Origin: a virus
Reading direction: 5' to 3' (one strand)
Length of the DNA stretch: 33,198 nucleotides
Virus record (IMG/VR): IMGVR_UViG_3300025133_000384
Coordinates: 1-33,198 of that record
The notes under the pieces are model-generated. The model was not told the origin of the DNA. It searched no databases and saw nothing but the letters and a program-made list of their open reading frames with translations. Made by a program: the position numbers and the translations under genes. Of this stretch, positions 7,797 to 27,788 are shown piece after piece. The first letter of the stretch is position 1. The number at the start of each line of letters is the position of its first letter.

Positions 7797-7819
7797 TAAA
7801 AAAATCAATCTAGGTTTAA

Positions 7820-10870: not shown

Positions 10871-10886
10871 TGCGCTATTGGTAAAA

Positions 10887-10991: not shown

Positions 10992-10992
10992 T

Positions 10993-11801: not shown

Positions 11802-11825
11802 GATTTGTCCTCCTTCTCCTTTGCG

Positions 11826-11871: not shown

Positions 11872-11874
11872 ACC

Positions 11875-12222: not shown

Positions 12223-12971
12223 AGATTGTCGATTTCTGCCATGATGCGTTTGTGCGCTTCGTCGGCTTGGGCTGCGATTCGTTCTGCGTCCCGGTCGAAG
12301 CCGGTTTTGGCTGCTGCCTTGATGCCCCACTCTGTAGCGGGTTCGAGGTAGCACTGCTGATTGAACCAAGTGGCTGGGTGTTTGATGTATTTTGCGGAGT
12401 CGGGTTCTGCGGCAATTCGTTGTTCGCAGGCCGTGGCCCATAGTTTCGTTTTTTCAACCAAGGCTTGGTAAGACAAGCCGTGTTCCTTTTTGGCTGATTC
12501 GAGTTTGAGTGCCTTGCGAATTGCTTTCAGCGCATTCGGCCTGCCGACCTTCCGAGGGTAGGCATCGTAGATAGCCTCAACTTCACTTTCTGGTATATGA
12601 CTGGTTCTTAACTGGTTCTTTACTGGTTTGGGTATCTGTGTGGTACTACCGGAGTAACTGTGTGGTACTACCGTAGTATCTGTGTGATACCCCCTATCAC
12701 TGTGATACCCCTCTGGATCGGCTACTGGGAGGCGGTATAAGTTGGTGCGATTGGCTCTGGATTCGACCTCCAGCAGCTTCTTATCTTGAAGCTCACGGAT
12801 AGCCCGAACGGCGGTCATTCGGCTGATGCCGCAGCGGGTTGCGAGGGTGTCCATTGAGGGCCAAGCGGAGTCATTATCCCTCCCGGCGTAATCGGCAATA
12901 GCAAGCAGCACGAGCTTGGTTAATCCGTTAACTGGCATATCCCATGCCCATGCTGATGCTTTAAGACTCAT
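12219..12971 (-). CDS. Replication initiator-like protein (250 aa)
   Basis: Residues about 15-85 form a winged helix: LTKLVLLAIADYAGRDND-W-PSMDTLATRCGISRMTAVRAIRELQDKKLLEV. The middle (about 90-125) is encoded by a run of iterons. The C-terminal part has DAYPRKVGRPNALKAIRKAL and HPATWFNQQCYLEP, a pairing typical of phage lambda-O/DnaT-like replication proteins. Like lambda O, it appears to bind an origin within its own gene. The start overlaps the previous stop as ATGA. No helicase loader is visible beside it. Confidence 0.75.
   Translation of the reverse strand: MSLKASAWAWDMPVNGLTKLVLLAIADYAGRDNDSAWPSMDTLATRCGISRMTAVRAIRELQDKKLLEVESRANRTNLYRLPVADPEGYHSDRGYHTDTTVVPHSYSGSTTQIPKPVKNQLRTSHIPESEVEAIYDAYPRKVGRPNALKAIRKALKLESAKKEHGLSYQALVEKTKLWATACEQRIAAEPDSAKYIKHPATWFNQQCYLEPATEWGIKAAAKTGFDRDAERIAAQADEAHKRIMAEIDNL
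12598..12711. other. Predicted replication origin: two iteron arrays inside the initiator gene
   Basis: Two arrays lie side by side. At 12598-12630 an 11-bp unit with the core ACTGGTT is repeated three times. At 12631-12711 four copies of a 18-22 bp unit follow, with core CTGTGTGGTACTACC in the first two and CTGTGTGATACCCC and CTGTGATACCCC in the last two. Regular spacing near two DNA turns and the place inside an O-like gene match the lambda-type origin layout. Confidence 0.7.
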
Positions 12972-13228
12972 TCTTCTGAGTAGGTTCCGTGATACGGATT
13001 CGGCTCATAATCCTCTGGAGATGGTTCAGGGTGAATCACCTCTAGTTCGGATGAACCTTCCCACCGTTGCATGATGCGATCCATCAGGCCGGTCTGCTTA
13101 ACGCGCTTCCACCAGTCATCAGGATACTCCTGATTACGGACTGCCTTGATTGCGTCACACGCCTTGCGCCAATCTTGAGGCGACTGACAGGCTTCGAGTG
13201 TTTTTAGTTCTACAGTTGTTATGTTCAT
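12968..13228 (-). CDS. Hypothetical protein (86 aa)
   Basis: The product has a helical N-terminal part (TVELKTLEACQSPQDWRKACDAIKAVRNQ) followed by YPDDWWKRVKQTGLMDRIMQRW and an acidic, Pro-rich tail. The motif with a double Trp after YPDD is seen in uncharacterised small phage proteins near replication genes. Both its start (13228) and its stop (12968) are 4-base overlaps with neighbours. It probably belongs to the replication operon, role unknown. Confidence 0.65.
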   Translation of the reverse strand: MNITTVELKTLEACQSPQDWRKACDAIKAVRNQEYPDDWWKRVKQTGLMDRIMQRWEGSSELEVIHPEPSPEDYEPNPYHGTYSEE

Positions 13229-13407
13229 TTCTTAAATTGTTTTTTAAATTCCCTACGCAACTCGGCCTTCAACATCCTGTCTGCCTTTCTCCTGACCCTC
13301 CTTGAGTCAGGCGTAATCCGATAACAGGAACCTGACGCAGCCCCAAACATTGGCCTGAATGCATCCCCTTTACCCATCTTCACTAAATTTTCATCTATGC
13401 TTTTCAT
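13225..13407 (-). CDS. Basic hypothetical protein (60 aa)
   Basis: This small protein is strongly basic in its C-terminal half (RRVRRKADRMLKAELRREFKKQFKK) and could bind nucleic acid. The start and the stop each form ATGA overlaps. The end of the gene (KKQFKK, stop) shares an 18-base junction sequence with the end of the upstream gene (KQFKK, stop), which suggests a duplicated linker. No family is recognised. Confidence 0.6.
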   Translation of the reverse strand: MKSIDENLVKMGKGDAFRPMFGAASGSCYRITPDSRRVRRKADRMLKAELRREFKKQFKK

Positions 13408-13871
13408 TTCTTAAATTGTTTCAGTTGATCCTGGTTAAGTGCGTACACCGGGCCATGCCCTAGATCAGTCAGGTTGTCCGGGTGGATCAGGTCAGCGGCC
13501 AGTGCGTACCCGGCGATCCGGTAGTTAGGCATCTCACCTATGAGCAGCACGAACACGTCACTGGGGTGCTTCTTTTTGTTGGGGTGAGCGAGTAAGCGGC
13601 CATCCGGGTAGGCTGTTACCTTCACATCGATTGTTTTGCCCTTTAGAATGCCGTCTGAGCCGCCTGAAACGGGTTTTACTTCCATGACAGGGCAGATGTT
13701 GAAATGCTTCGCAAAGGCCAGTTCAGCGGCCATCCCTTCCACCTCGGTCTTGTGCTGTGACTGCTTTCCTTGCTTTTGGTTCGTGATACCGGCTGCACGG
13801 CTCACCAGAGTCCTCATACTGGCCAGCATTTGAGCGACAGCGCACTCTGATGCGGAGAGTTTGACGGTCAT
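13404..13871 (-). CDS. PD-(D/E)XK nuclease-like protein (155 aa)
   Basis: I prefer ATG 13869-13871 (MTVKLSASECAV) because it overlaps the stop of the 27-aa ORF as ATGA. A second possible ATG is at 13895. Likely active-site residues are Glu50 (GMAAELAFAKHF), Asp73 (SGGSDGIL) and Asp82-Val-Lys84 (TIDVKVT), followed by YPDGRLL and SDVFVLLIGEMPNYRIAG, the usual late strands of the fold. It could be a recombination or host-DNA-cleaving nuclease. Substrate unknown. Confidence 0.65.
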   Translation of the reverse strand: MTVKLSASECAVAQMLASMRTLVSRAAGITNQKQGKQSQHKTEVEGMAAELAFAKHFNICPVMEVKPVSGGSDGILKGKTIDVKVTAYPDGRLLAHPNKKKHPSDVFVLLIGEMPNYRIAGYALAADLIHPDNLTDLGHGPVYALNQDQLKQFKK

Positions 13872-13951
13872 AGCAGGATGTAAATCAGCAGCCATACTAA
13901 TAAGCCCACTACAATAAAATCAATTATCAGGCTGTAGTCCTTGGGTTTCAT
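13868..13951 (-). CDS. Possible 27-aa single-pass membrane peptide
   Basis: ATG 13949-13951 opens a 27-codon frame (MKPKDYSLIIDF, then VVGLLVWLLIYILL) ending at TGA 13868-13870. The peptide is a charged start followed by an uninterrupted hydrophobic helix of about 18 residues. Its stop forms an ATGA overlap with the nuclease start, the genome's normal junction style. It overlaps the end of the gene at 13920-14102. A clear Shine-Dalgarno is missing, so expression would rely on coupling. It could be holin-like or a membrane tether. Confidence 0.45.
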   Translation of the reverse strand: MKPKDYSLIIDFIVVGLLVWLLIYILL

Positions 13952-14102
13952 TTTTGAGCGAAGGCGGGTTGAGCCACTTCTTATCGTTGATTCGCTGGTA
14001 GTCACTTAGAGACACATACGTCCCCTTCTTGGAATGGAAGTGACCCTTCCGTTTTGGTGTACCCCAGCACATTTTAAATTTACCTGAATTTTTCCTCTTC
14101 AC
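13920..14102 (-). CDS. Hypothetical protein (60 aa)
   Basis: The product (MKRKNSGKFKMCWGTPKRKGHFHSKKGTYVSLSDYQRIND) is basic with His and Cys residues in the first half. A GTG start at 14102 overlaps the upstream stop as GTGA. An internal ATG (MCWGTPKRKGHF) is an alternative. No family is recognised. It is followed without a gap by the 27-aa membrane ORF in another frame. Confidence 0.5.
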   Translation of the reverse strand: MKRKNSGKFKMCWGTPKRKGHFHSKKGTYVSLSDYQRINDKKWLNPPSLKNETQGLQPDN

Positions 14103-14476
14103 GATTTAGCAATCTCCTTCCACCTCTCCATCTCCTTGCGGAGTTGCTTCTTGCTCATTCCATCATCCTCTGGCTTCTCGTGATCGCTGACCCGGCCCAG
14201 TGTTTGGATAATGTGGAAGCAGGCAGTGCGTGCATCCATCTCCTCATCCAACCCCTTGAGTGCGAGCTTGCACACCTCATCGATTTGGTCGCGGAGTGTG
14301 ATTAGGTAGACAACTTGATCAACAGCCTCGTTGATTGCTTCACGCTCAAGTGGCTTCTCCCACAGGTGTCCTCCGTGTTCCTGAATCCCTTGCAGGTACT
14401 TTGTGTTTACGAGTTCGTCGAACTCCGTCTGGATGTGACTGATGTGTTCGTAGTCGGCTAGTGTTGGTACTCCCAT
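14099..14476 (-). CDS. Phage protein of possible MazG/nucleotide-pyrophosphatase type (125 aa)
   Basis: The protein is all-helical with DYEHISHIQTEFDELVNTKYLQGIQEHGGHLWE and REAINEAVDQVVYLITLRDQI. These acidic helices are arranged like the metal-binding helices of MazG-like or dUTPase-type all-alpha nucleotide pyrophosphohydrolases, but I cannot show the full ExxE/ExxD signature. It has a strong Shine-Dalgarno (AAAGGAGGAAAG) before ATG 14474-14476. The C-terminus is a charged helix. A general phage hypothetical is the fallback. Confidence 0.6.
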   Translation of the reverse strand: MGVPTLADYEHISHIQTEFDELVNTKYLQGIQEHGGHLWEKPLEREAINEAVDQVVYLITLRDQIDEVCKLALKGLDEEMDARTACFHIIQTLGRVSDHEKPEDDGMSKKQLRKEMERWKEIAKS

Positions 14477-14561
14477 TGTTCTTTCCTCCTTTGAATATTA
14501 GGTCGTAGTTGTTTCTGAATTTGTCTGAGAAATTATTTCTCGGCACACTTCCTTTGCTCAT
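14346..14561 (-). CDS. Small overlapping ORF after the DnaA-like gene (up to 71 aa)
   Basis: ATG 14559-14561 overlaps the stop of the DnaA-domain gene as ATGA and opens MSKGSVPRNNFSDKFRNNYDLIFKGGKN. This form (short basic start, then a KFxxNYDxIF motif and a Lys-rich end) recurs in tiny phage proteins, which normally stop there. Here the frame runs on for about 40 codons in a different frame over the next gene. Either the extension is tolerated or the ORF lost its stop. Confidence 0.45.
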   Translation of the reverse strand: MSKGSVPRNNFSDKFRNNYDLIFKGGKNNGSTNTSRLRTHQSHPDGVRRTRKHKVPARDSGTRRTPVGEAT

Positions 14562-14890
14562 ATCTGGTAATCGGAATCGATTGGCTCCTTGACGACTAAC
14601 CATCTGGCAACCTTCCACTTTTCAAGCGAACGTGGGTCTGAGAGGACTCGCCTTTCGACCGCCGATTTAGCGTGCATGACCGTGCCGTGGCACCGTTTAA
14701 ATAAACGGCCAGTTCGACTCAACGCCCCCTTGTTACTGGAAAGCGATTTCCATGTAATCACCATCGCAACCTGACGCGCCTCGGCAATCGGCTCAAAGCG
14801 TGAGCGGCCAAGTATCTCTTCGGGCGTGACCCGGTAAACTTCAGCTACTCCCCGGACAATCCCCTCAAATTGATGTTTAAAATAATTCAT
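14558..14890 (-). CDS. Stand-alone DnaA domain IV-like DNA-binding protein (110 aa)
   Basis: The sequence from VAEVYRVTPEEILGRSRFEPIAEARQVAMV (residues 15-43) to CHGTVMHAKSAVE (67-79) matches the C-terminal DNA-binding domain of DnaA: an HTH plus the HGTVMHA signature that reads the DnaA box. There is no AAA+ ATPase part, so this is a free DnaA domain IV. Phages with such genes may use it to mark or block host-type origins. Start and stop are ATGA overlaps with the exonuclease and the next ORF. Confidence 0.78.
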   Translation of the reverse strand: MNYFKHQFEGIVRGVAEVYRVTPEEILGRSRFEPIAEARQVAMVITWKSLSSNKGALSRTGRLFKRCHGTVMHAKSAVERRVLSDPRSLEKWKVARWLVVKEPIDSDYQI

Positions 14891-15672
14891 AGTTTTGGTT
14901 TGTAGTTTTTTTCGTACTGCCAGAGGCGCAGTGCTGCCTCGAATGCTTCCATCGCTTCACTCACCTCTTCAGGTGTCCACAGCTTGATAATCGGTTCCAT
15001 TGGCTCAGTCGTATTGATTGCAACACTGACCACCGGCACCTTGGTCATCAGGCAACTCTGGTAGAACGCCAACTGCATGACCCATTTGGAATAATAGTTT
15101 GGTTTGTACACCGGCTTCTTGGCTTTACTCAGCTTCATCTTCTGAGTCTTCCAATCGACCAACACTGGCTGATCACCGACAAGCTCGGCTGCCTTGCCCT
15201 TGAAGTAGACCATCGCATCAGCCTTACCGGCTACACCGAGGCTGCGGTTAACCAGTACCCTTTCACTCCACTCATGTGCCTTGATATTTCCTTGGCTCCA
15301 CTCGTGAAACTTTTGCAGGATAGGGCAGGACTCATCCCAGAGCCTGCCGCCGATCATTCTCTCAATGCCATCATGGACAAGCGTCCCAAGCCTCGCCGCT
15401 TCATTGCGGAGAGACTCAGAACGCTCGACTAATCGTCTACCAAAAACGTCACCTGACTCGGCTGCCCCGCGCTGCAATTCCACGGCAGCAACCGCCATCT
15501 GATTGAGCTTCCATCGCTCTAAGCCATCAGATCGGACAATCGACAGGATTGAAGTAGGTGAGGGTAAGAGTTGTTCCTTGCGTGCATCACGCAGGTTAGC
15601 ATCATACCTTGGCTCACCATCGGCTGTATACCAATGGCCGCCACCGTCTGGTTTAACGAATAGAGATGCCAT
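14887..15672 (-). CDS. RecB/Cas4-like PD-(D/E)XK exonuclease (261 aa)
   Basis: I start at ATG 15670-15672 (MASLFVKPDGGG). An upstream in-frame TTG is less likely. Motifs are RLGTLVH (His100), SERV (Glu138), GKAD (Asp152) and VLVDWKT (Asp173, Lys175), the standard order of the PDDEXK_1/RecB-family nuclease. The Gln-rich motif QLAFYQS follows. In phages such enzymes serve in recombination or replication beside an ssDNA-binding protein, as found here. The start follows the stop of the OB-like gene by three bases. Confidence 0.8.
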   Translation of the reverse strand: MASLFVKPDGGGHWYTADGEPRYDANLRDARKEQLLPSPTSILSIVRSDGLERWKLNQMAVAAVELQRGAAESGDVFGRRLVERSESLRNEAARLGTLVHDGIERMIGGRLWDESCPILQKFHEWSQGNIKAHEWSERVLVNRSLGVAGKADAMVYFKGKAAELVGDQPVLVDWKTQKMKLSKAKKPVYKPNYYSKWVMQLAFYQSCLMTKVPVVSVAINTTEPMEPIIKLWTPEEVSEAMEAFEAALRLWQYEKNYKPKL

Positions 15673-16348: not shown

Positions 16349-16726
16349 CTATTCTGCTGGAGGCAAATCGCCTCGTAAAAACTTAGCAAACTCATCGGCT
16401 GGCATCGTGACCAGCCACGGGCTGTGGTTCTTTTTATGCGCCACAATCGGCACCTTACCTGTTCCTTCACAATCACGCTTGGCTTGATCGATTGCGTCAT
16501 GGATGTTCAGGCGTTCCACTGCCTTCACCTCCCAGTGGATGTAATTCAGTGACGGGCAAACGACATCGGGGAAGTCCTGACCAAACTGATCACGGCCAGC
16601 ATTCTGGCAGCCGCGCTTTGCATCAAACATTGGGGTGCCGTCCTTGTTGAACCCAATGTCTTTGAGGTACAGGCACCAAGCCCTCTCGGCTCTGGCACCT
16701 TTCGCTCTGGAATTAATGCGGCTCAT
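16349..16726 (-). CDS. Holliday-junction-resolvase-like PD-(D/E)XK nuclease (125 aa)
   Basis: The N-terminus SRAKGARAERAWCLYLKDIGF is followed by RGCQNAGRDQFGQDFPDVVCPSLNYIHWEVKAVERLN. Likely catalytic residues are Glu14, Asp54 and Glu66-Val-Lys68. This is the layout of Hjc/VRR-type nucleases and phage PD-(D/E)XK resolvases. A C-terminal helical region follows. The ATG overlaps the excisionase-like stop as ATGA. It may resolve replication/recombination intermediates before packaging. Confidence 0.72.
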   Translation of the reverse strand: MSRINSRAKGARAERAWCLYLKDIGFNKDGTPMFDAKRGCQNAGRDQFGQDFPDVVCPSLNYIHWEVKAVERLNIHDAIDQAKRDCEGTGKVPIVAHKKNHSPWLVTMPADEFAKFLRGDLPPAE

Positions 16727-16923
16727 CGGCGGGGTGTGGGGGTGCCGATGAACCGCTGGAGGGAAGCGAGTGTTATGCGTACCCCTTGCGAACCTATTCG
16801 GATCGGCTCAAGGTCGCCTCGCTTCAATAAAGTGTCGATGTGCGGGATACTGCAATCCATCAACTCAGCCGCATGTTTGCGGGAGACGAGTTGCATTGCT
16901 TCTAATTGTTTATCTATTTCCAT
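16723..16923 (-). CDS. Excisionase-like MerR-type HTH protein (66 aa)
   Basis: The sequence LVSRKHAAELMDCSIPHIDTLLKRGDLEPIRIGSQGVRITLASLQRFI is the minimal winged-HTH of the AlpA/HTH_17/excisionase family: helix, turn, recognition helix, Arg-Ile wing, final helix. It sits a few genes from the integrase, and an Xis role is likely. It could also regulate transcription. The upstream gene ends ten bases inside its start, and its stop overlaps the nuclease start as ATGA. Confidence 0.75.
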   Translation of the reverse strand: MEIDKQLEAMQLVSRKHAAELMDCSIPHIDTLLKRGDLEPIRIGSQGVRITLASLQRFIGTPTPRR

Positions 16924-17093
16924 GTTTTTAATGCGTATGGGGTCACGTCGAAGAGTAGCCCGTTAGTTAATTGCAGCCTGACGTTTCGCTTTTCTGGCTT
17001 GCCAAAGGCATCGCCCACAATGCGTCCCTTAATTGCCGGGTTATCCTTGTGCTTCACCCGGTCGCCCACTTTGAATGTTACTTCTTCAACCAT
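16914..17093 (-). CDS. Small SH3/KOW-like protein (59 aa)
   Basis: ATG 17091-17093 lies inside the last codons of the lysin gene, and TAG 16914-16916 lies inside the first codons of the next. The product (VTFKVGDRVKHKDNPAIKGRIVGDAFGKPEKRNVRLQLTNGLLFDV) has the strand-turn pattern of a small beta-barrel with a VGDRVKHK opening typical of KOW/SH3-like domains. The role is unknown. Confidence 0.6.
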   Translation of the reverse strand: MVEEVTFKVGDRVKHKDNPAIKGRIVGDAFGKPEKRNVRLQLTNGLLFDVTPYALKTWK

Positions 17094-17767
17094 GCCTCAA
17101 TCTTTCGGATCGCACGTTGAGTTGTTGCCGGGGATTTGCTTACATCGAATTTAACCTTGCGTGCATTACCAACACCCCAGTTGTAGCCCATGTATATCTG
17201 GCCTGCCGTGGGGTATTTTACACCTCGGTCACGAATGTATTTCTCGATCCACTGTAAATAGCTGACAGCGTACAGGCGACTCCACTTAATGTCTATAGAC
17301 CCCTCCTTGTAGGATGTGGTGGGAAGTCCGTCACGTTGACGGATTTGCGTGGTGTGCTGCCATGTAGGCTGCCAGAATTGAAATGCGCCTGAAGCCTTAC
17401 CGCCGTCTCCAATCGCCGTGGCTCGCCCGTTCGACTCCACTTGGCATACCGCTTCGATTAGCTTTGCGTTGACTCGGCTTGGTGCCGCTGGCTTCGCAGA
17501 AAATCCGCTCAACGTACTCAGCAGGAGTAAGGCCAGCAGACTTAGCCTCTTTGCGAAGTGCAAGGAGGATTCGTTTATCAAGCCATGCTGCGAGCAATGC
17601 TTTATGTTCTGCGCGTTGGTCTGGCACGGGTCTTCTGTGTCACACTCCATCGGCATATCCGATATAATCTTATCCACCTCATCCATCAGGTAGCGTTTTG
17701 ATTCGGAGTTTAAATGCCCAAATTTCCGGGCAGACGCATTTGAAATGATTAAACTGACACTCTCCAT
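17078..17767 (-). CDS. Endolysin-type transglycosylase/lysozyme-like protein (229 aa or shorter)
   Basis: Residues about 100-170 (AKLIEAVCQVESNGRATAIGDGGKASGAFQFWQPTWQHT) have the lytic-transglycosylase/goose-lysozyme-like pattern with catalytic Glu111 and the GAFQF motif. It is followed by the YLQWIEKYI helix and QIYMGYNWGVGNARKV. Residues 73-91 form a signal-anchor-like segment (KRLSLLALLLLSTLSGFSA), so export without a holin is plausible. The first 68 codons are of unknown role, and a TTG at 17563 just before the signal segment is an alternative start. The ATG at 17767 has good AGGAG spacing. Confidence 0.72.
   Translation of the reverse strand: MESVSLIISNASARKFGHLNSESKRYLMDEVDKIISDMPMECDTEDPCQTNAQNIKHCSQHGLINESSLHFAKRLSLLALLLLSTLSGFSAKPAAPSRVNAKLIEAVCQVESNGRATAIGDGGKASGAFQFWQPTWQHTTQIRQRDGLPTTSYKEGSIDIKWSRLYAVSYLQWIEKYIRDRGVKYPTAGQIYMGYNWGVGNARKVKFDVSKSPATTQRAIRKIEAWLKK
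17397..17627 (-). CDS. Overlapping-frame ORF with ribbon-helix-helix-like segment (76 aa)
   Basis: A GTG at 17625-17627 opens a second frame inside the lysin gene. Residues about 14-42 (AAWLDKRILLALRKEAKSAGLTPAEYVERI) look like the strand plus helices of a CopG/RHH domain, and codon first positions in this frame are G-rich, as in the phage's known genes. It could be a separate nested gene, or the true downstream part of a gene starting at 17767 and reached by a frameshift. Confidence 0.4.
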   Translation of the reverse strand: MPDQRAEHKALLAAWLDKRILLALRKEAKSAGLTPAEYVERIFCEASGTKPSQRKANRSGMPSGVERASHGDWRRR

Positions 17768-17881: not shown

Positions 17882-18067
17882 TTATTTAGAAGGCTTCTTT
17901 TTCTGACTGCCAATATCGTCAGACTCCCCCATCTCATCCTTGAGCATGTTCCTGATTAAGTCCGAGACACTCACGCCCCGCCTCTTGGCCTCCTTGGCGA
18001 GGCGTTTGCGGAAGTCGCCGGTAACCCAGAATCCGACTCTCTTCATTGATGGATCGCGAAATGGCAT
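17882..18067 (-). CDS. Ribbon-helix-helix (Arc/CopG-like) regulator (61 aa)
   Basis: I start at ATG 18065-18067; a later ATG (MKRVGFW) at 18046 is possible. The sequence VGFWVTGDFRKRLAKEAKRRGVSVSDLIRNMLKDEM has the RHH form: one strand, two helices and a basic helix 1. A Lys-rich tail follows. It sits between two sets of palindromes (17796-17840 and 18087-18103), so it is likely an autoregulated repressor. It is the best candidate for the lysogeny regulator here. Confidence 0.72.
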   Translation of the reverse strand: MPFRDPSMKRVGFWVTGDFRKRLAKEAKRRGVSVSDLIRNMLKDEMGESDDIGSQKKKPSK

Positions 18068-18086
18068 TGCGTTAAAACCAATACAC

Positions 18087-18103
18087 ACACTGTAGCACAG
18101 TGT
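18087..18103. promoter_or_regulatory. Perfect ACACTGT/ACAGTGT palindrome before the RHH gene
   Basis: Two 7-bp arms flank an AGC centre, 19 bases upstream of the RHH start codon. The position over the likely promoter region fits autoregulation by the RHH protein. No other copy was found near the twin GGCGG palindromes, so two different DNA-binding proteins could be involved. Confidence 0.55.
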
Positions 18104-18144
18104 AATACAAATACTACTTATCAACACAACAAAAGCCTATAAGT

Positions 18145-18409: not shown

Positions 18410-19672
18410 TTACCCAACCGCCGCCTGTTTGTTAACAGGCTGCTCGGCGGTCAGGTTAATTTCGTACTCAGGCTGCTTAACAATATCAGCGTAATAACTC
18501 TCGGTAGTGGTAATAGATGCATGACCCAGTAAACGCTGCACCGCGAACAGGTCTTTAATCTGGTGACTTACTTCACTGCCAAACCACCTCCGCAACTCAT
18601 GCGTCTTTTTCTTTTCAGTCCACCCGATAGACAAGAACCACTTACACAGTCTTCTGCCAATCCCCTGCTTGCGATCATTACCACTGTATGCAGGGATGAT
18701 GAACTCAGAGTCATCACTGAGTAAAAGAATCTGATCATACACCGATTCGCTTAACGGCACCCGGCGAATTTTACGACCCTTCGGCACCCACGTCTCAGTG
18801 GGCTGAACGTAAAGCACCCGTTTCCCCTTGTAAAAGGTGATCCATTCCTTCCGAGCCTGTAAAGCCTCTGTCCTCCGCAAGCCACACCCCGCAGCCAACT
18901 GGAATAACAAGTAGGCCGAGGGGTCTGACTCTTTCAACGCAGGGAGGTTAGCTTTCAGTGTCTCCACCTGGCCATCGATCTTCTCGTACAGGAATTCAAC
19001 GGGAGTACACTTCTGGTGCGGTGCTTCAACGAATGTGCTTATGTCAGGCAGGCCGGGATAGAGTTTGTCCACGATGTTTCGCTTGGAAAATAAACTCTTC
19101 GCATCCCCTAGCAAACTGTTTGCACCACGAATACGACTCTCGCGTGCCTCACCCGCTTCCGGGTAACCTAAGAGCCTATTCTTCATAAACTTCTTAACCA
19201 GTTGACGGTCGAGGATTGTAGCAGGTAGCTTGTCAATCGCTGGCTCAACCCATTCCCCTGACTCAGCATCCTTAACCTGTTTCCGTTCAATCTGGAGGGC
19301 TGTACGAATCAGCGTGCGTAAACGATTGCTGGCCTCACGAGAAACGCGCTTGGTCTGAGTCGGCACATCCTGTTCGATAAATAATTGAATGCACTGACCA
19401 ATCGTGATGACACCCTTCTTGTTCTGACCGGCATGAACGAAGTCCCATTGTTCGCGGGAGGCTGCCCGGACTTTGTCCAGAGCAGTGGCTGCTGCTGTAC
19501 GTTCATCCGTGGTGCGGAGGTTGAGTTGGTGGTGCTTGCCGTTGGCAGCGAAGCGGGTGCGCCAGTTCTTACCGCGCAACTCGATCACTGCGGTGGTGCC
19601 GTCCTTCGCAGACACCTTGCGCTTGCTGTCAACCGGCTTGCCGTTGCGGCCTATGTATTTTTCGATCTTCAT
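18410..19672 (-). CDS. int: Tyrosine-family site-specific integrase (420 aa)
   Basis: The protein has an N-terminal arm/core-binding part (residues 1-200, with an SAM-like helical region) and a catalytic part. Catalytic residues are Arg266 (CGLRRTEAL), His358 and Arg361 (HELRR), His384 (LLGHAS) and Tyr393/394 (TESYYADIV). It integrates the phage at attB, here predicted to be the tRNA-His gene. It lies just downstream of the attP site. The ATG at 19670-19672 has AGGAG with correct spacing. No recombination-directionality factor is next to it, and the best Xis candidate is at 16723. Confidence 0.93.
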   Translation of the reverse strand: MKIEKYIGRNGKPVDSKRKVSAKDGTTAVIELRGKNWRTRFAANGKHHQLNLRTTDERTAAATALDKVRAASREQWDFVHAGQNKKGVITIGQCIQLFIEQDVPTQTKRVSREASNRLRTLIRTALQIERKQVKDAESGEWVEPAIDKLPATILDRQLVKKFMKNRLLGYPEAGEARESRIRGANSLLGDAKSLFSKRNIVDKLYPGLPDISTFVEAPHQKCTPVEFLYEKIDGQVETLKANLPALKESDPSAYLLFQLAAGCGLRRTEALQARKEWITFYKGKRVLYVQPTETWVPKGRKIRRVPLSESVYDQILLLSDDSEFIIPAYSGNDRKQGIGRRLCKWFLSIGWTEKKKTHELRRWFGSEVSHQIKDLFAVQRLLGHASITTTESYYADIVKQPEYEINLTAEQPVNKQAAVG

Positions 19673-19700
19673 TTTTAGTAGCTCCTGATTTTGTTTTTAG

Positions 19701-19731
19701 ATGTCCCGCAGGACATTGGTGTTTTACACCT
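19701..19731 (-). promoter_or_regulatory. Integrase promoter/operator (AGGTGTA family plus TGTCC palindrome)
   Basis: On the minus strand AGGTGTAAAACACCA (19717-19731) follows TTGGCA with an 18-bp gap to TAAAAC, a plausible promoter. Just downstream is ATGTCC/GGACAT (19701-19716), a 6-bp palindrome in the 5' UTR, followed by the Shine-Dalgarno AGGAG. Both elements are shared with the start of the replication operon at 16303-16338. Confidence 0.5.
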
Positions 19732-19757
19732 TAACCACCCTTACTGCCAAGCATTAA

Positions 19758-19777
19758 TTTGTCCAAAATTTGTCCAA
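19758..19777. repeat. Integrase arm-type repeat, left copy
   Basis: TTGTCCAAAATTTGTCCAA (19759-19777) contains two near-tandem TTGTCCA sites 11 bp apart. An identical 19-mer occurs at 19998-20016 in the same orientation on the other side of the tRNA-like core, as expected for integrase arm-binding sites. Confidence 0.5.
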
Positions 19778-19844
19778 GGGCTATTTCCGAGGGGCAGCGT
19801 TTAGAGCTGATGTGCAGAATAGCACGGTATAACAGAAGAAAAAA

Positions 19845-19893
19845 TGGGGTGATCGACCGGGCTTGAACCGGCGACAACCAGAATCACAATCTG
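19845..19893 (-). other. attP core: 3' half of a tRNA-His gene
   Basis: Minus strand 19893-19845 reads as the anticodon stem-loop CAGATTGTGATTCTG (anticodon GTG, His), the TTGTCG variable region, the CCGGTTCAAGCCCGG T-arm, the acceptor CGATCAC and C-CCA. The 5' half of the tRNA is absent: position 27 would pair A with G, and no D-arm follows. The T-rich run after CCA may be the old tRNA terminator. This is the usual signature of an attP that restores the host tRNA on integration. Confidence 0.85.
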
Positions 19894-19997
19894 TAAATTT
19901 CTTTGCTCACACAGTCATTCATCCTCATTCACAGGCATAAACTGTAAATCACTCACCCTCCAAAACACCTCATATTAGACATATTAGAAGCACTGAC

Positions 19998-20016
19998 TTG
20001 TCCAAAATTTGTCCAA
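19998..20016. repeat. Integrase arm-type repeat, right copy
   Basis: This is the second copy of the 19-mer TTGTCCAAAATTTGTCCAA, 239 bp from the first. Just to its left, CATATTAGA is repeated in tandem (19971-19989), and CTGTAAAT occurs at 19891 and 19946. These look like further Int/Xis/IHF-type sites around the core. Confidence 0.5.
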
Positions 20017-20018
20017 AA

Positions 20019-20270
20019 TCACCTTCGGGGTTTGATCGACTTTACTGCTCCTCGCGGGATGGCGGTGTAGTCTCCTAGCGTCTCATCAACTGGCCCGTCA
20101 TCGATATATTGGCTGGTCGCTATTACCAAAAATTCCTTGTCGGCCTTTACCAATTTTCCTTCCGTCCAAACGTCGGCAATCTTAACATCCTTCAGTGGCT
20201 GGTTGATATAACCTACGATGTCCTGCCATAGGCACCTGACCCTAGTTCCTACTGGTGGAAGCCGCTTCAT
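20019..20270 (-). CDS. Small protein of unknown function (83 aa)
   Basis: The ATG at 20268-20270 (MKRLPPVGTRVRCLWQD) overlaps the stop of the nuclease-like gene as ATGA. The product has a small beta-barrel-like pattern (VGTRVRCLWQDIVGYIN, TEGKLVKADKEFLVIATSQYIDDGP, DYTAIPRGAVKSI) seen in uncharacterised phage proteins. A longer version starting at 20285 is less likely. It is the last gene before attP. Confidence 0.6.
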   Translation of the reverse strand: MKRLPPVGTRVRCLWQDIVGYINQPLKDVKIADVWTEGKLVKADKEFLVIATSQYIDDGPVDETLGDYTAIPRGAVKSIKPRR

Positions 20271-20671
20271 TTTAATAAATGCCAAGCCTCCTTGAATGGT
20301 TCGTAAACTGGCAGCTTCTTCTTAACGCCGACCGGCCAAGCTACCAGACGGTAGGTGCGTAACACTTTCACCGGGATGACGAAGTTGCCCAGCGGCGTCA
20401 CAGCCACCACAAGGTCACAGTCTCGGAGGTTGTACGGGGTGTGCTTTCGGCTTCCCTTCTGGAGGTTAACTGAGGCTGATCCATTCTTAGCGATCTGGCA
20501 TGTACCCTTAACCTGAATCCTACTGATCTTACCATTGAAGTCTGCGACCAAATCGTAAGCCTGCCCATCGCCGTATGGCCACAAGACTGTCCCGCCCAAT
20601 TCAGCTACCTTCAGGGCTACCGCTAGTTCATGGCAGTTGCCCTGCTGTTTGTACTTCGTAATTGCCACCAC
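20267..20671 (-). CDS. PD-(D/E)XK endonuclease-like protein (134 aa)
   Basis: The GTG at 20669-20671 lies eight bases after the giant gene's stop, with GAGGGAGAAGG upstream; a second GTG follows three bases later. The ORF continues upstream into the giant gene, but the function-bearing part starts here. Glu15 (NCHELAVALKVAELGGTVLWPYGDG), Asp40 (YDLVAD) and Gln53-Val-Lys55 (RIQVKGT) follow the PF11645-type PD-(D/E)XK layout. The Gln in place of the usual Glu is known in this group. Confidence 0.65.
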   Translation of the reverse strand: MVAITKYKQQGNCHELAVALKVAELGGTVLWPYGDGQAYDLVADFNGKISRIQVKGTCQIAKNGSASVNLQKGSRKHTPYNLRDCDLVVAVTPLGNFVIPVKVLRTYRLVAWPVGVKKKLPVYEPFKEAWHLLK

Positions 20672-20678
20672 CCGAAAT

Positions 20679-23600
20679 TCATTTGGCCTTCTCCCTCTTC
20701 CGCAACTCCCGCTTGTACTTGGTCTTAAAGATTTGTTCAGCACGTTGCTTGCTGCCTGCAACCCCAGCCAGTACACCGTCCGGGCCGTACACCCTCCAGT
20801 TGCCTGCCTTGGTCAACAGCATCGACCAGCCTATACTGTTACGCTCGGCACCCGGTACTGCGGCATCAGGCATGAAGCGTGCAATGCCGGTGTCCAGCAC
20901 CTTCGCTTTAACCTCCGGGGTGAGCTTGACGATGTGGACGGGGAGGGGCTTCAGGTCAACACCCTCTAGGAACTCCTTCTGTTCAGGTGTTAACTTGCTA
21001 ATCTCACCCGTCTCCACCTTTAGCCCCAGCTTCTTCCACGTCTTCATCTTGACCAGCATACGGTCGTAGAAACCTTTCATGCCTTCCTTGCGCGGTAGCG
21101 ATGTCCCGGCATCCTCGTTTTGCATTCTCTCCCAAGTGCGGTCGGTTAGCTTATCAACCTGCTTCTCGAAATTCTCCGGTGACCATTGGCCGCGTTCACG
21201 CTCCATCACCGTCTCCTTGATTAGGGCGTGTAACTGTTCCTTGCTGGTGATCGTGTCGCCGCTTTCCTTGAGTATACCTTCTGCACGGGCAGCAGCCTCA
21301 ATGTTAATGCCGTCTGCCTCGCTACCTCGTTGCTCAGTAGCCTTGACCTTCCAACCGTCACCGTCCTTCACCCATGCAATCTCTGAGGAACCGTACCGCT
21401 GAAACTGCGTCTCACCCTTCGTCCAACTGATGGCATCGTAACCATTATCAACGGCATACTTGATCATGCGTTTCATCGCCAGTTCGTGCCACGAGGTCTT
21501 GAAGGGTGCGTCTGGGACTAGGTTAGAATCGTTTCGGTCATGGAAAAAGTTAAGATCAATCCGCTCTTTACCCTCTTTACCAATAGCATTTTGCAGGATT
21601 TGCCACTCCCTAGTAGTTGGCCTTGCGTCAGTGGTTCGTGGTTCTTCTAACAAATGATTGAACGCTTTCTCGACCACCGCCATATCTGTTCCACCGTCCC
21701 GTCTAGCTGCGTCCATAACCCTCTTTCTGAACAATTCAAGCGCATCACCCTGATACCCCTTCTTACGCCCCTCCTGATGCCAATCGCTCTGTATCTCCTC
21801 GATGAATAGCGTCTTACCATGCTCAGATGTGCGGTCGTTGAACCGGACATGGGCGAGGGTGTTCGGGGTGTCGCCGTAGTGGCCTCCCTTGTAGTCGGCC
21901 TTGCCTTCAATATACTCAAACGTAAGGCCGGGGTTTTCTCGCGCAAGGTCGGATGATGACGCTTCTGAAATGTATTCTGCCTTCGTCTGTGGATCAGTGT
22001 TCGGCAGCCTCATTGTGGAGATAATATTTCCGTCGGTATTTTTCGCCAAAAGAAGTGGCGGGTCATTCTTCGGCAACCGCAGCAACAACTCCCGGTAGCT
22101 GCCCTCGACTGCGCCGGGTTCGACGTAGGAGGAGTGTTTGGTTTCTGGCCGCATCATGCTTCGGTGACGGGTAAGTTCGGGGTGAGCGTCAGCGTAGGAC
22201 TGTGCCTCTGCGGCATTTGAGGCAATTCTCTTTGGCACATCAACAAACCCGCCGCTTCCGTCGTGAACCACCCATACGTTTGTATCCTCTCTCACCCCAG
22301 ACTCGTAACGCGGCACTGCCTCGCCACCCCCCAACACCGTCTCCTCAACAGTAATACTATTCTCCACGAGGTGATCGATAATCTCGTCCCTGGTGACGCG
22401 ACGATTGCCCTCAAGGAATTTGTCCAGACCAAGTGCCTGCAACTCCTCATCCTTAACGCCAGCCTTCTTGATCATCGCCAGCATCTGCGAGGCACTACCC
22501 TTCTCCTGCTTCAGGTCAACAGTGGCACGCTCGGCTGCACTGAACATGCCCAAGGCGTCTTGGCCGCCTACGTCAGGCATGAAGCGGGTAGTGACAGTCG
22601 GCTTACCTTTCTCAACTTCAAAACGCTTAAACCCTCCCTCGGATCGTGCCTGCTCAGTAAACTTCTTGGCTACAGTGAATCGCTTAATAAATTCCTTCCG
22701 CTTCTTGGGTGTATCAGGGAATCCATGCTCCAGTGCAAAACGATTAACCACATCCAGCGAGCTATGCCCCACCGGCTCATTCTTGGCAATATTCCATGTC
22801 ACCCAGTGCGTGCCTGAGACGCTGTTAAACGAACCCTGCAACTCAGCAGGTAGATGAGCATCCATTCGGCTTGAAACATCACCCAAGGCACCTTCTAGGA
22901 CGCGATACAGGGCATGTGAGCCAGCCATGCCGCTCAGTTGTTTCTGCACAGTATCCGACCAGCCCGTCTTCTCAACCGGAACATCCCCTTTCTTGGTTAT
23001 GTAAAGAGATGCCCCCGGCCCCTCCTTGGCCTCGACAGCAGCCTTTAACTGCGCCTCCCAGAAATTAATCATCTGCCAGCGGTCAACAATAACCACATCA
23101 TCACGAGCCAGCGTCAGTATCACGAAGCTATTCACCTTGTCGTGAATGCCTGCTGATAATAATCCCTGCGACCACATCGCCTCGCGCATCTGTGGCCCGG
23201 TCAATCTTGAATCATTTAAAACCCTGTTAACGTCATTCCATCTCCCGTTCCATCTAGCCAGCATCGAGTGAAACCCGTTTATGTTCTGGAGTGCATTCAT
23301 GCCAGCCGATTCATGTGACCGGGCCTGCTGACCTTTTGTCACACGGTAAACCAACTCAACCCATGTGCCTTTCTGCTCACGGTTACGGCGATCTGCCATA
23401 TCCTGTGCCAGCTTCCAACGCTTATCGCTGACACTTTGCTTGCCTCTAACATTCTTCCAGCCCTCCGCAGCCACAACTTTTTCAGGTGTCCAGTATTCAC
23501 CTCGTGGCATACTGAACTCGCCATCAATAGACTTGTAAAGTTGCTCCATGAACTTCGGGTTGCTAACCATGCGAATCCAGCCTGCCTCCTGATCATATGG

Positions 23601-26600
23601 GCCAAGCATTCTTGATAAGAATCCCCAGAAGTAATTCAGTGCAGTCGCCTCAACTGGCAGCTTGCCTTGACGAGCAAGCTCGTGCATCTGGCGAACAGAC
23701 TCAAGACCCTCCTTGCTCTTTAAAACCAGATCAGGGTTCTTCGCATAGGCATCACTTATATACTCAGCCAACTTGCTGGGGTCTTGCACCCACTCATGCA
23801 AACGAGATGGGTGAGGTGGAAGTTCTGTCATCGACACCCCGTCAAGGCGCGTCTGAAGTTGTTGCACCCATTCATCAGGGCTAACGCCTTTGTTGGGTGA
23901 TTCTGATTGAAGCTGGTCAGCTAATTGCTCGCGTTCAAGATAGTCGCGCCACTGAGCCTCCCCCCACTTTGAAGAGTCTTTAGGTTTTGGCACCCCATCG
24001 TGTGTCGCGTTGTTAACACGCAGCACGGGTACATCATAACCGTTCTTCGACTTGGCAGTTACTGGCTGGAGTTCGGTGGCTCCGTGCCTTCTGCCTTCTC
24101 TGGGGGAGTCGCCGTACCCTTCTGATTCCCACTTTCGGTAGACGTCCCTAATGGGGTCACCGATCCGACTGTCCACCCTTCGGAATATATCGGGTCGGAC
24201 TCCTCCAACTCTCTCGCCGTGCAGTAACGCCCCTTCCTTATAATTTTCGCCATTTCGATTTTCTTTCCAGTTATTAGTTTCGTAAATTGTATCGCCTGCC
24301 CTAAACTTATCTATAGCAGAACCTGCGTAACTCTCCGTTTCTAGGGCAGCCCATAGTGACTCATACACGCTACCGTATTTTATAGCATCGTTGAAACCGA
24401 GATGAACAATGTCCACGCCAGTTTCTGTCGGGAAAAGGGCAATGTCACCTGCCCCTCCTGATTGGTCAGCCTCGACCCTTTTGAGGATCACGTCAATGTC
24501 TTTTTCTGTAAGCTCACGGCCAATGTCTATGCGGAACGCATTCGCCCCTTTGCTTCGCTTGTAAGCAGGCTTATAACCCCCAACCCCCTCCTGATGAGCG
24601 TACAGGCCAAATAGGTTGGAGGCTACCAACGCTTCCGAACGGGTAGTACCCTTGGCTAACTTGATTATCATCGATGGATTAATCTCAAGTTGACCAGCAG
24701 AATTTAAATAGGCTGATGGACGTGTGGCAATTTCATGTTCAATCTTTAGTTCCTCTAGTATGTGCAGTTTATTTGTTTCAGGATTGATGTGTGCCTGAAT
24801 CATGTCGTTATGATATTGCTCACGCACTAACATTGGCGCACCGATCAGTCTCTCTAAAAACCCTGTTGCCTTGCCCGGTATAAATTCAACTGAAACCTTG
24901 TCCGGTATTGCATCACCCACATCAACCATGAAGCGATCCTTGCTTAACTGGTAGGCATCCTCACTCATCTTGGCCCTCTCGCCGGTAGGCTGTAAGCCGT
25001 CCATACGATCCAAGCGAAAGTTCTTGGTGTATTTACCTCCACCCTTTTCCTTCTTCATCAAAAGTTCCTGAAAGAAGTCAGCCTTGTTTTGCCCGAAAAG
25101 TTTTTTGCTTTTAACCGGATCATCAGAAGCAAGGTTAGTCAGGTACTCCTGAAACTCGTGAATGAATGCAGCATGATCATTATCCCAGAGGCCCAACTTC
25201 TTGGCGAAAGACATGTTAGCTGTGTCAGTCCAGAGCTTTGTCCAATCGATTGCACGCACAAATATGTTACCGGCATTTGATACCTCAATCGTATAAGGCA
25301 GCACAGCACGCTTACTCTTCTTGATGCCTGACGAATACTTGCTGGTGAAAAGCCCGGTCAGCCTGTTCTTACGCCGGGTGGTAGCAGCGTAGTACGTCAT
25401 GTCTGTGATCAGTCCATTCTCAACAGCGTTATTAAACGCCTCCACATTCTGACGAGTGGTCGGAAGGATCGTAGAGTTAGCCTGAATCTCACTGATCTGT
25501 TCCGGGCTGAACCGGGTGCCTCGAATAACCTCGACCGTAGTCCCGTCTTTCGTCTCCGTTTCAATCCGCATTCCATCTGGCCCCCCTTTCTCCAGAATAT
25601 TCTTCATGGCAGAATCACTTGCAGCCTCCTCGGCGGCAATGTCCTTGTCATTCTTCATCACACGACCACCCTTGCCGTCATCCTTCAGCATGTTAAGCCG
25701 CTCAAGTTCTACTTGATGATGTTTAAAGTCTTTCTTCTTAATGGCGGTAGTAATCGTCTTGTCAGTTGCCTCGACCAGTTCGCCAAGGTTCTTTCTGCTG
25801 CGAACCATGTCACGCAGCATGGCCCCCACTACCGGGCTGGTCTTGTCCATGTCAGGGAAGAGCATCGACTTGCCGGGTGTAACGCCTATCTGGCTTAACT
25901 TCGCAATGGCATTATTAATCGCACCGCCGGTCTGCTTCATTACCTGCTCATCGATCACCTTGCGAAGAGGGGTATCGAAGCCGCGCATCATACGGTCATA
26001 CTTCTTACCCTTCTTACCCGTAATAACCATTGCCATATGATCACCAGCAATTTCATCAACAATGTATTTAGCCCTGCCTTCTCTTGTAGCAACAGAAGAT
26101 TCCGATGGCCGGTCACTCGGCTTCAGCTTTTTAACGTAATCATTGAAAAAATTTTCAAGCTGGGCTTCGGGTATCAATCCTTCCTGCAACAGCTTTCCTT
26201 CAGACCACATACCTGCAATCTCTGTTCGGATCGCGTCAGCCATCGGTTGCAACTGCTCGATCTTTGTAAGGCCGTGCCATAGCTCATGGCCGATTGTGTA
26301 GTGACTATCAGCCTTTGCTAGGTTAACTACCAGAGTTGGTATTCCTTCGGCTGACTTCATGTCAGGGACAAATCCCCGTTCAGCCTTTGGATCATTAATA
26401 AACTTAACGCTGGCATCACCAAGCGGCCCTCTGAAAATCCTAGTAACATCAAATATAGTGGCAGCCTGATCCTTGCCGTACTTGTCAATGTAACCCTGCA
26501 TCATGGCTCTATCAGAGTCACTCAGGTTACGCATATAAAAGTCCACATCCTTGGCTCGCTTGGCCCTCATAGCGGCCCCTGTAACGCCCTCTACGCCCCT

Positions 26601-27788
26601 TGCGATGCCTCCACCGAATCCACCTAGTGCTATGCCCCCTCCGAGGCCACTGGCAGCACCTTCCCAGCCGTCTGCTAATCCACCGAGGCCCATACCTACT
26701 ACACCACCGGCAGCCATGCCACCGGCTGCTCCAGCACCTAGCTCCAGCAGTGGGTCGCCGTAGCTAAGAGTCCTTGCCAGGCCATAGCCCTGCTTGCCCT
26801 CTAAACGGGCCGCAGCACCGCCAAAGAAGCCTTCACGGCCCAGCCCCCTCTGAAGACCCTCGCCAGCCTCTGCAAGCACTCTACCGCCAACCTGAAGCCC
26901 TTTAGTGGCACCGTAGGCACCGGCTACGACAGGCGCACCAGCAGCCATAACGCCACCACCTAATCCTGCGCCAACAGCCAGCGCACGACCTGTCTCAGGT
27001 GTCACTCCTGTTGCCCCGGTAAAGGCTCTTGACGTGACATCGCGTGCGCCTTCACCAATCTCGCCCAGTGTGTCGCCTGCCCTATACATGCCTCGGCCAA
27101 CCTTAGAAGCTGCCTTGCCGGTTGCAGTTGCGGCGACCTTCGAGGCTGCTTTAGTAAATGATTTACCGAGGAAACCGCCGAAAGGAAGTGAAGGGTCTAG
27201 GACGTTGGCTTGCCCTCTTGTCGCCTCTGGGTTAGGTGACTCCTCAATTAGCTCTTCCCTGATCTGGCTGAAGTATTGAATTTTATCACGCTCCGCAGCC
27301 ATGTCTTTTTCAAGCTGCTTATCGTACTCAGCCCTTCGGGCTTCAGTGTCTTTTCGGCCAGAGAGAAAATCATCGTAAGTGTCTTCAGCCTTACTAAAGT
27401 GGTTAACAATCTGCTTCCCTAAATGCCACATATCCAGAGTGCCTACCCCAAGCCCAGAAGGAACTGACCTAGCGAATTCAAGTGGCGAAGTGGCCAACTC
27501 ACCTAACGCACCAACAACTTCACCACCAATCTGCTTAAAAGCACCACCGGCAGCCGAGGCAAATTCAGAAACCCCCATCGATTGCTCATTCTTCCATTCC
27601 CGGTAACGCTTGTACTCGTCAAGCGTCATGTCGTTGTTAAACCAATCCGGGTCTAACATCATGTGACCGGCAACCTCTTCGCCGGTCATCGGGTATTCCT
27701 TATCGATGGCAGCCTTAATTTCGTCGTCTCCCATTTCATCGGGAAACTCAAGTATCACGTTCCTGTGAGGCAGGAATATTTCAGGCAT
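20679..27788 (-). CDS. Giant polyvalent internal virion/ejection protein (2369 aa)
   Basis: It starts MPEIFLPHRNVILEFPDEMGDDEIKAAI. Residues about 200-420 are Gly/Ala-rich with hydrophobic stretches, probably for membrane channel formation. A zinc metallopeptidase motif TIGHELWHGL (His501-Glu502-x-x-His505) follows. Near residues 1985-2010 a TLAHVRFNDRTSEHGKTLFIEEIQSDWHQEGRKKGY block appears, and near 2100 WHELAMKRMIKYAVDNGYDAISWTKGE; both are signatures of the large phage polyvalent proteins. It is TAATG-coupled to the upstream gene. Such proteins are injected with the DNA and carry several effector domains. Confidence 0.75.
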   Translation of the reverse strand: MPEIFLPHRNVILEFPDEMGDDEIKAAIDKEYPMTGEEVAGHMMLDPDWFNNDMTLDEYKRYREWKNEQSMGVSEFASAAGGAFKQIGGEVVGALGELATSPLEFARSVPSGLGVGTLDMWHLGKQIVNHFSKAEDTYDDFLSGRKDTEARRAEYDKQLEKDMAAERDKIQYFSQIREELIEESPNPEATRGQANVLDPSLPFGGFLGKSFTKAASKVAATATGKAASKVGRGMYRAGDTLGEIGEGARDVTSRAFTGATGVTPETGRALAVGAGLGGGVMAAGAPVVAGAYGATKGLQVGGRVLAEAGEGLQRGLGREGFFGGAAARLEGKQGYGLARTLSYGDPLLELGAGAAGGMAAGGVVGMGLGGLADGWEGAASGLGGGIALGGFGGGIARGVEGVTGAAMRAKRAKDVDFYMRNLSDSDRAMMQGYIDKYGKDQAATIFDVTRIFRGPLGDASVKFINDPKAERGFVPDMKSAEGIPTLVVNLAKADSHYTIGHELWHGLTKIEQLQPMADAIRTEIAGMWSEGKLLQEGLIPEAQLENFFNDYVKKLKPSDRPSESSVATREGRAKYIVDEIAGDHMAMVITGKKGKKYDRMMRGFDTPLRKVIDEQVMKQTGGAINNAIAKLSQIGVTPGKSMLFPDMDKTSPVVGAMLRDMVRSRKNLGELVEATDKTITTAIKKKDFKHHQVELERLNMLKDDGKGGRVMKNDKDIAAEEAASDSAMKNILEKGGPDGMRIETETKDGTTVEVIRGTRFSPEQISEIQANSTILPTTRQNVEAFNNAVENGLITDMTYYAATTRRKNRLTGLFTSKYSSGIKKSKRAVLPYTIEVSNAGNIFVRAIDWTKLWTDTANMSFAKKLGLWDNDHAAFIHEFQEYLTNLASDDPVKSKKLFGQNKADFFQELLMKKEKGGGKYTKNFRLDRMDGLQPTGERAKMSEDAYQLSKDRFMVDVGDAIPDKVSVEFIPGKATGFLERLIGAPMLVREQYHNDMIQAHINPETNKLHILEELKIEHEIATRPSAYLNSAGQLEINPSMIIKLAKGTTRSEALVASNLFGLYAHQEGVGGYKPAYKRSKGANAFRIDIGRELTEKDIDVILKRVEADQSGGAGDIALFPTETGVDIVHLGFNDAIKYGSVYESLWAALETESYAGSAIDKFRAGDTIYETNNWKENRNGENYKEGALLHGERVGGVRPDIFRRVDSRIGDPIRDVYRKWESEGYGDSPREGRRHGATELQPVTAKSKNGYDVPVLRVNNATHDGVPKPKDSSKWGEAQWRDYLEREQLADQLQSESPNKGVSPDEWVQQLQTRLDGVSMTELPPHPSRLHEWVQDPSKLAEYISDAYAKNPDLVLKSKEGLESVRQMHELARQGKLPVEATALNYFWGFLSRMLGPYDQEAGWIRMVSNPKFMEQLYKSIDGEFSMPRGEYWTPEKVVAAEGWKNVRGKQSVSDKRWKLAQDMADRRNREQKGTWVELVYRVTKGQQARSHESAGMNALQNINGFHSMLARWNGRWNDVNRVLNDSRLTGPQMREAMWSQGLLSAGIHDKVNSFVILTLARDDVVIVDRWQMINFWEAQLKAAVEAKEGPGASLYITKKGDVPVEKTGWSDTVQKQLSGMAGSHALYRVLEGALGDVSSRMDAHLPAELQGSFNSVSGTHWVTWNIAKNEPVGHSSLDVVNRFALEHGFPDTPKKRKEFIKRFTVAKKFTEQARSEGGFKRFEVEKGKPTVTTRFMPDVGGQDALGMFSAAERATVDLKQEKGSASQMLAMIKKAGVKDEELQALGLDKFLEGNRRVTRDEIIDHLVENSITVEETVLGGGEAVPRYESGVREDTNVWVVHDGSGGFVDVPKRIASNAAEAQSYADAHPELTRHRSMMRPETKHSSYVEPGAVEGSYRELLLRLPKNDPPLLLAKNTDGNIISTMRLPNTDPQTKAEYISEASSSDLARENPGLTFEYIEGKADYKGGHYGDTPNTLAHVRFNDRTSEHGKTLFIEEIQSDWHQEGRKKGYQGDALELFRKRVMDAARRDGGTDMAVVEKAFNHLLEEPRTTDARPTTREWQILQNAIGKEGKERIDLNFFHDRNDSNLVPDAPFKTSWHELAMKRMIKYAVDNGYDAISWTKGETQFQRYGSSEIAWVKDGDGWKVKATEQRGSEADGINIEAAARAEGILKESGDTITSKEQLHALIKETVMERERGQWSPENFEKQVDKLTDRTWERMQNEDAGTSLPRKEGMKGFYDRMLVKMKTWKKLGLKVETGEISKLTPEQKEFLEGVDLKPLPVHIVKLTPEVKAKVLDTGIARFMPDAAVPGAERNSIGWSMLLTKAGNWRVYGPDGVLAGVAGSKQRAEQIFKTKYKRELRKREKAK

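Follow-up and report, generated by a model that had tools for sequence, protein, structure and literature searches.

The window analysed here, a complete virus record of 33,198 bp that is classed linear, very probably carries the phage attachment site (attP) of a marine temperate tailed phage, whose adjoining integrase would pair the core of the site with a host tRNA-His gene in such a way that the tRNA is kept. We propose that the N-terminal domain of the integrase binds both pairs of 11-bp arm sites, that the anticodon-arm core is paired with the same stretch of the host tRNA-His gene, and that strand exchange takes place within the anticodon loop or directly beside it. Once the phage is integrated, the 5' half of the host gene and the 3' half brought by the phage would together form a complete tRNA-His at attL, the end that carries the integrase, and the host would therefore keep its tRNA. 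The proposal builds on features read from sequence, namely the partial tRNA gene, the paired arm sequences, the location of the site inside the genome, the restoration of the tRNA in silico, the conserved geometry and the concerted changes of the arms, and it presumes an integrase that is active at attP.

Layout of the attachment site

The gap of ~350 bp upstream of the integrase gene (18410-19672) holds attP, and within this gap the 3' half of tRNA-His sits between two arm repeats (Table 1). Read on the minus strand from 19893 to 19845, the half is CAGATTGTGATTCTGGTTGTCGCCGGTTCAAGCCCGGTCGATCACCCCA, running from base 28 (C28) to the encoded CCA, with the anticodon GTG at 19885-19887; A27.G43 is mismatched in the anticodon stem. 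The half-gene with its anticodon and CCA, as well as the mismatch at 27-43, had been described in an earlier note on this DNA, and both are as described. A complete tRNA gene across the site, which would speak against that reading, is absent, since ARAGORN finds none in the 33,198-bp window; an Rfam scan of the window likewise gave no matches.

Table 1. Positions in the window of the proposed attP, its parts and the neighbouring genes
Feature	Position	Strand	Evidence or remark
attP (proposed)	19759-20019		adjoins tyrosine integrase gene 18410-19672
Candidate arm-type site pair, integrase side; TTGGACAA at 19759-19766 and 19770-19777	19759-19780	minus	
attP core, tRNA-His 3' half, bases 28-76, CCA encoded	19845-19893	minus	sequence
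Lone difference from nearest hosts, T loop: A57 in attP, G57 in hosts	19864	minus	
Anticodon loop TTGTGAT, probable 7-bp overlap; stems would be the core-type sites	19883-19889	minus	inside bases 30-47
Candidate arm-type site pair, far side of core; 11-bp units with TTGGACAA at 19998-20005 and 20009-20016	19998-20019	minus	
Tyrosine integrase, 420 aa	18410-19672	minus	PF00589 E=8.6e-14; phrog_1 integrase E=1.2e-27
Integrase N-terminal 80 aa, probable arm-binding domain	19433-19672	minus	AlphaFold2
88-aa protein, far side of attP, kept in L003	20019-20285	minus	no Pfam match
PD-(D/E)XK endonuclease-like protein, far side of attP	20267-20776	minus	PF11645 E=1e-13
SLT-domain transglycosylase, downstream of integrase	17078-17767	minus	PF01464 E=4.3e-7
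RHH protein (RHH_1), near integrase gene	17882-18127		

The two repeats (TTGTCCAAAATTTGTCCAA; 19759-19777 and 19998-20016) are 19 bp long, identical and 239 bp apart, as noted earlier, and each is made of two 8-bp TTGTCCAA units 11 bp apart. The longest repeat in the 613 nt of 19673-20285 is thus 19 nt, compared with 14 nt across 500 dinucleotide shuffles. The earlier note had also called the repeats symmetric, which holds for distance, as the GGACAA units start at -125, -114, +114 and +125 counted from tRNA base 32, but not for orientation, since the repeats are direct. As the repeat pairs flank the core, keep their geometry and change their sequences in concert, we regard them as candidate arm-type sites of the integrase.

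Prophage ends too carry tRNA fragments adjoining integrase genes, and one genome of the host order (G185) has an attL-like arrangement adjoining tRNA-Phe. The site could accordingly be thought to be a prophage attL or attR, or the junction of tandem prophages, a reading that is very improbable given that the window is without a complete tRNA, that phage genes flank the site on both sides and that the two ends of the window are linked by phage DNA. The link is provided by the record of the nearest relative, L003 (G327, IMGVR_UViG_3300005514_000004, 31,507 bp), which is circularly permuted relative to the window, with bases 6584 and 13452 of that record corresponding to window positions 32 and 33196, and ~6.9 kb of phage DNA spans the interval between them. 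The site is therefore internal and, as these ~6.9 kb lie between the window ends, the phage genome would measure about 40 kb. The flanking genes, from which attP had already been preferred to attL or attR, and the bridge between the ends thus favour the same assignment.

Host tRNA genes and restoration of the tRNA

The earlier note had suggested that a bacterial tRNA-His equal to 19845-19893, with a prophage next to it, would name the host. No such exact match was found, neither for a 45-nt stretch of the core among 84,980 species (genome_contigs) nor among the tRNA-His genes of 320 genomes of the host order. A relaxed core pattern found 82 stretches, five of which (L031, L039, L057, L073 and L078, with the labels Verrucomicrobia, Verrucomicrobiota or Verrucomicrobiales) are identical to the 49-nt core except at a single base (48/49). 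The next-best class has three differences and consists mostly of Akkermansiaceae and other Verrucomicrobia, together with one gammaproteobacterium (Stenotrophobium). In the host order, 7 of the 320 genomes match the core with at most two mismatches, including G192 and G193, in which A57 is present and two other bases differ. A host tRNA-His differing throughout the stretch, which would have weakened the attP reading, is not what the nearest hosts have, as position 57 is their only departure among the 49 bases. Since base 27 is C in the hosts and A in attP, identity ends at base 28, in line with the earlier placement of its end at the 27-43 mismatch.

The host is probably an uncultured Verrucomicrobiota related to the bacteria of these five stretches, bacteria that we take to be marine, in part from some record names (ETNP, ERR599032). 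The expectation that attB would identify the host thus held as far as a clade, with one mismatch, at clade level only and with no prophage found. Integrase and MCP searches of the 320 order genomes gave no integrated copy of the window phage: a related integrase (E<=1e-20) occurs in one of them, adjoining tRNA-Phe (G185), and the MCP search gave two distant matches (28-32%), while the integrase search of 11 candidate host genomes gave one weak match. A wider integrase profile reached 29 of the 320 genomes at E<=1e-20. Its distant integrases were considered as broader evidence for tRNA targeting and set aside; only 3 of the 30 loci scanned gave a tRNA (tRNA-Phe in G185, whose own integrase is in the profile, tRNA-Pro and tRNA-Gln), and the distant integrases therefore do not extend the pattern. 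Our literature search found no paper on the attB of a Verrucomicrobiota phage lysogen, and among the matches listed none was, by its title, on marine Verrucomicrobia prophages or their tRNA integrases. Megablast of 23.2 kb of the window against phage records likewise gave no match, and the clade is a host lead for a phage group without a close match in the phage records searched.

Joining the host 5' half to the window 3' half yielded a tRNA-His in all seven attL joins with the seven genomes, and none of the seven attR joins yielded a tRNA (ARAGORN). The core is long enough to rebuild tRNA-His in 7/7 cases, and the window phage does not have the short core by which tRNA-dependent lysogeny is recognized. 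Its 33,198-bp record, with ~6.9 kb of the genome outside it, holds no phage-encoded tRNA.

In three genomes (G003, G004 and G005) the DNA 3' of tRNA-His matches the attP of a more distant relative of the phage, G336, over 113 nt (92.9%, 98.2% and 97.3% identity, respectively). The match reaches and includes the arm-site stretch, which holds a GTGCAA pair in G003, a GGACAA pair in G004 and a degenerate second copy in G005. In its simplest reading the segment would be an integration scar, which supports these bacteria as hosts of the group, though it could also be host DNA captured by the phage. In G001, G192 and G193 a lipoprotein gene begins at most ~15 nt after tRNA-His, and in G002 ~55 nt after it. 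We considered that an element might still be integrated between tRNA-His and this gene in G005, an idea that found no support: in this genome the lipoprotein gene is on a separate contig and follows a different gene, the stretch of preceding DNA that was inspected contains no tRNA-His fragment, and no integrase is evident among the open reading frames in the 3.5 kb after tRNA-His. At the loci L095, L090 and L091 (genomes G004, G003 and G005) the G336-like segment follows tRNA-His with no integrase evident in the DNA seen beyond, and G003 has a third arm variant, GTGCAAA.

Relatives with exchanged core and arm sequences

An integrase is present in four of 28 virus records (27 with a related major capsid protein, and the record of L131). 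In two more distant relatives, G334 and G336, the capsid protein is 74% identical to that of the window and the integrase ~49%, and both have G57 in their tRNA-His half, which equals the host sequence across the 52 nt aligned. The relaxed pattern found the tRNA-His half in only three stretches of IMG/VR (G334, G336 and L004), a count that may leave out the window's own record; the phage record of L004 is 100% identical to the window across the 11,175 bp it holds.

The nearest relative, L003, has an integrase 71% identical to that of the window. From the far side inward, identity between the two sites is 109/117 in the far flank, 11/22 in the far arm pair and 92/95 in the spacer from arm to core, followed by 64/122 from the core to the near arm, 12/22 in the near arm pair and 69/83 in the near flank. 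Mismatches thus amount to 21/44 in the arms versus 25/295 in the flanks and spacer (Fisher p=1.5e-9, with the segments drawn after the alignment was seen and the core segment omitted). The units of L003 are GTACAA at -125, -114 and +125 and TTACAA at +114, counted from base 32, which are exactly the positions of the window. Its core, at 1977-1996 of its record, is the anticodon arm of tRNA-Phe only: the 20 nt, CGGACTGAAAATCCGTGTGT (bases 28-47), also occur in the tRNA-Phe genes of five order genomes, and beyond this stretch L003 differs from the rest of the tRNA. Joins with the five tRNA-Phe genes yielded a tRNA in 0/5 cases at attL and 0/5 at attR, the core being too short to rebuild it. No phage tRNA was found in the 31,507-bp record, which is without a counterpart of window 7771-15489. 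These comparisons suggest that L003 switched its target to tRNA-Phe, keeping the flanks and the geometry.

Phages carry pieces of tRNA for reasons besides integration, and the tRNA-His piece might thus be a chance remnant, or a decoy against, for instance, anticodon nucleases, with no role in integration. We hold this to be extremely improbable, as the piece is centred between the arm pairs and adjoins int, the same half recurs in two more distant relatives, and L003 has the anticodon arm of another tRNA at that very position. Taking the piece as the core of attP, the relatives also narrow the crossover. As identity with the hosts begins at base 30 in G334 and G336, and the stretch common to L003 and tRNA-Phe spans bases 28-47, the crossover would lie within bases 30-47 (window 19874-19891) if its position is shared. 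This interval includes the anticodon loop and agrees with the strand exchange in the anticodon arm put forward earlier, provided that the four phages share a crossover. The 7-nt loop, flanked by its stems, is probably the 7-bp overlap.

At L126 2541-4194 (G185, contig C43), near the contig end, a related integrase adjoins an intact tRNA-Phe, from which it is separated by a TGGCCGTAC pair, so that the locus resembles an attL. The integrase, 29% identical in the alignment, is in the same orientation as the tRNA, and the integrase group therefore uses tRNA-Phe as well.

The DNA around attP is almost the same in G334 and G336, but their arm sites differ: the near pair is AGAGCAAA in one phage and AGGACAAA in its partner, and the lone candidate site on the far side likewise has two forms, AGTGCAAA and AGGTCAAA. 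Their integrases differ at 28/411 residues, 12 of which are within the first 60. Residues 34-44 differ at 6/11 positions versus 6/49 elsewhere in the first 60 (p=0.005), and between the window and L003 at 5/11 versus 2/61 elsewhere in the first 72 (p=0.0006), p-values that are descriptive because the range was fixed after both alignments had been seen. At residue 38, the window and G336 (both GGACAA) have R, L003 (GTACAA) has I and G334 (GAGCAA) has E. The arm sites thus appear to change in concert with residues 34-44. An AlphaFold2 model of the N-terminus (pLDDT about 69-90 over residues 1-70) has beta strands at 27-33, 36-43 and 46-51 followed by a helix at 57-79, and places residue 38 within the middle strand; the full-length model is poor (mean pLDDT 39.6). 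Fold searches with the integrase model and with the N-terminal 80 aa gave no clear match among the matches listed, where a tyrosine-integrase arm domain is absent. On the basis of the model, these 80 aa are probably the arm-binding domain.

The TTGTCCA repeats lie in the gap upstream of int, with the RHH_1 gene close by, and could be imagined to be operators at which this RHH protein, or another regulator, controls the integrase gene. We consider this quite improbable, since the repeats form two pairs, one on either side of the core, L003 keeps their exact spacing, in each of two distinct phage pairs the changes go together with a concentration of differences at integrase residues 34-44, and paired 11-bp repeats are the form of arm site published for Cluster K phages (PMC3203893). 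If the repeats are arm sites, one may go further and regard the phage group as a natural series of in-place attP reprogramming, in which few changes in integrase strand 36-43, residue 38 foremost among them, would rewrite all arm sites, and L003 as a tRNA-dependent or tRNA-destroying integrator outside Actinobacteria, its core replaced by the 20-nt tRNA-Phe anticodon arm. We offer this tentatively, as a doubtful though conceivable extension; if true, the cognate tRNA of L003, if any, would be encoded outside the sequenced part of its genome.

Comparison with published systems and neighbouring genes

Pope et al. 2011 (PMC3203893) reported paired 11-bp arm repeats whose consensus varies with N-terminal residues 17 and 19 of Cluster K1 integrases, and a one-base T-loop mismatch to a host that was tolerated in lysogeny. 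Like the Cluster K1/K3 mycobacteriophages of that study (CrimD, Anaya, Adephagia and Pixie), the window phage has two pairs of 11-bp repeats, here candidate arm sites, that flank an RNA-gene core beside int, and the consensus of these repeats varies among near relatives along with residues at the integrase N-terminus; the window phage also has a one-base T-loop mismatch to its probable hosts, as in Cluster K. It differs from Cluster K1/K3 in host phylum, in integrase sequence and in the target, which is tRNA-His and not tmRNA or tRNA-Lys, and, unlike in CrimD, where P3/P4 are inverted, the four arm units of the window are all direct.

Short cores that do not rebuild the tRNA are described for Fionnbharth, Gaia and Daredevil by Guerrero-Bustamante and Hatfull 2024 (PMC10865867); Daredevil, which breaks its target and is without a cognate tRNA, forms clear plaques, and other short-core phages carry one. 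The 20-nt non-rebuilding core of L003 is like theirs, whereas the window phage rebuilds tRNA-His; compared with the phages that have their own cognate tRNA, L003 has no tRNA-Phe in its 31.5-kb record. The window integrase resembles the tyrosine recombinases with an AB domain that are known from phages and ICEs (PMC8138268), with N-terminal, core-binding and catalytic parts and the RKHRH-Y residues (R266, K298, H358, R361, H384 and Y393/Y394), which are invariant across the five aligned integrases; its best NCBIfam matches are XerC-type and far below cut-offs.

The mechanism is an ordinary one. Actinobacteriophages provide published examples of paired 11-bp arm repeats, of co-variation between arms and N-terminus and of short cores that do not rebuild the tRNA. 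Beyond the earlier note, the analysis contributes a host clade, the single mismatch to it, the finding that the repeats are direct, the conservation of attP in more distant relatives and a sister with exchanged core and arms. The explicit attP/attB pair can be tested in vitro without culture of host or phage, and the sister phages are matched pairs for studying how integrases read arm sites and how temperate phages shift their tRNA targets.

Among the neighbouring genes, the SLT-domain transglycosylase is common to all four phages, and the PD-(D/E)XK endonuclease-like protein has relatives in IMG/VR. Elsewhere in the window, 20679-27788 (minus strand) encodes a 2369-aa protein without a Pfam match, along the length of which RFMPD motifs are repeated, and 15-bp tandem repeats at 27856-27900 encode an APAPV-type linker near the end of a 767-aa protein. 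An exact 19-bp direct repeat (13224-13242 and 13403-13421) edges an intergenic gap. L003 encodes at 5084-5284 a 66-aa HTH_17 protein, below the Pfam cut-off, that is a candidate excisionase, and the window may hold its counterpart near 16720-16920.
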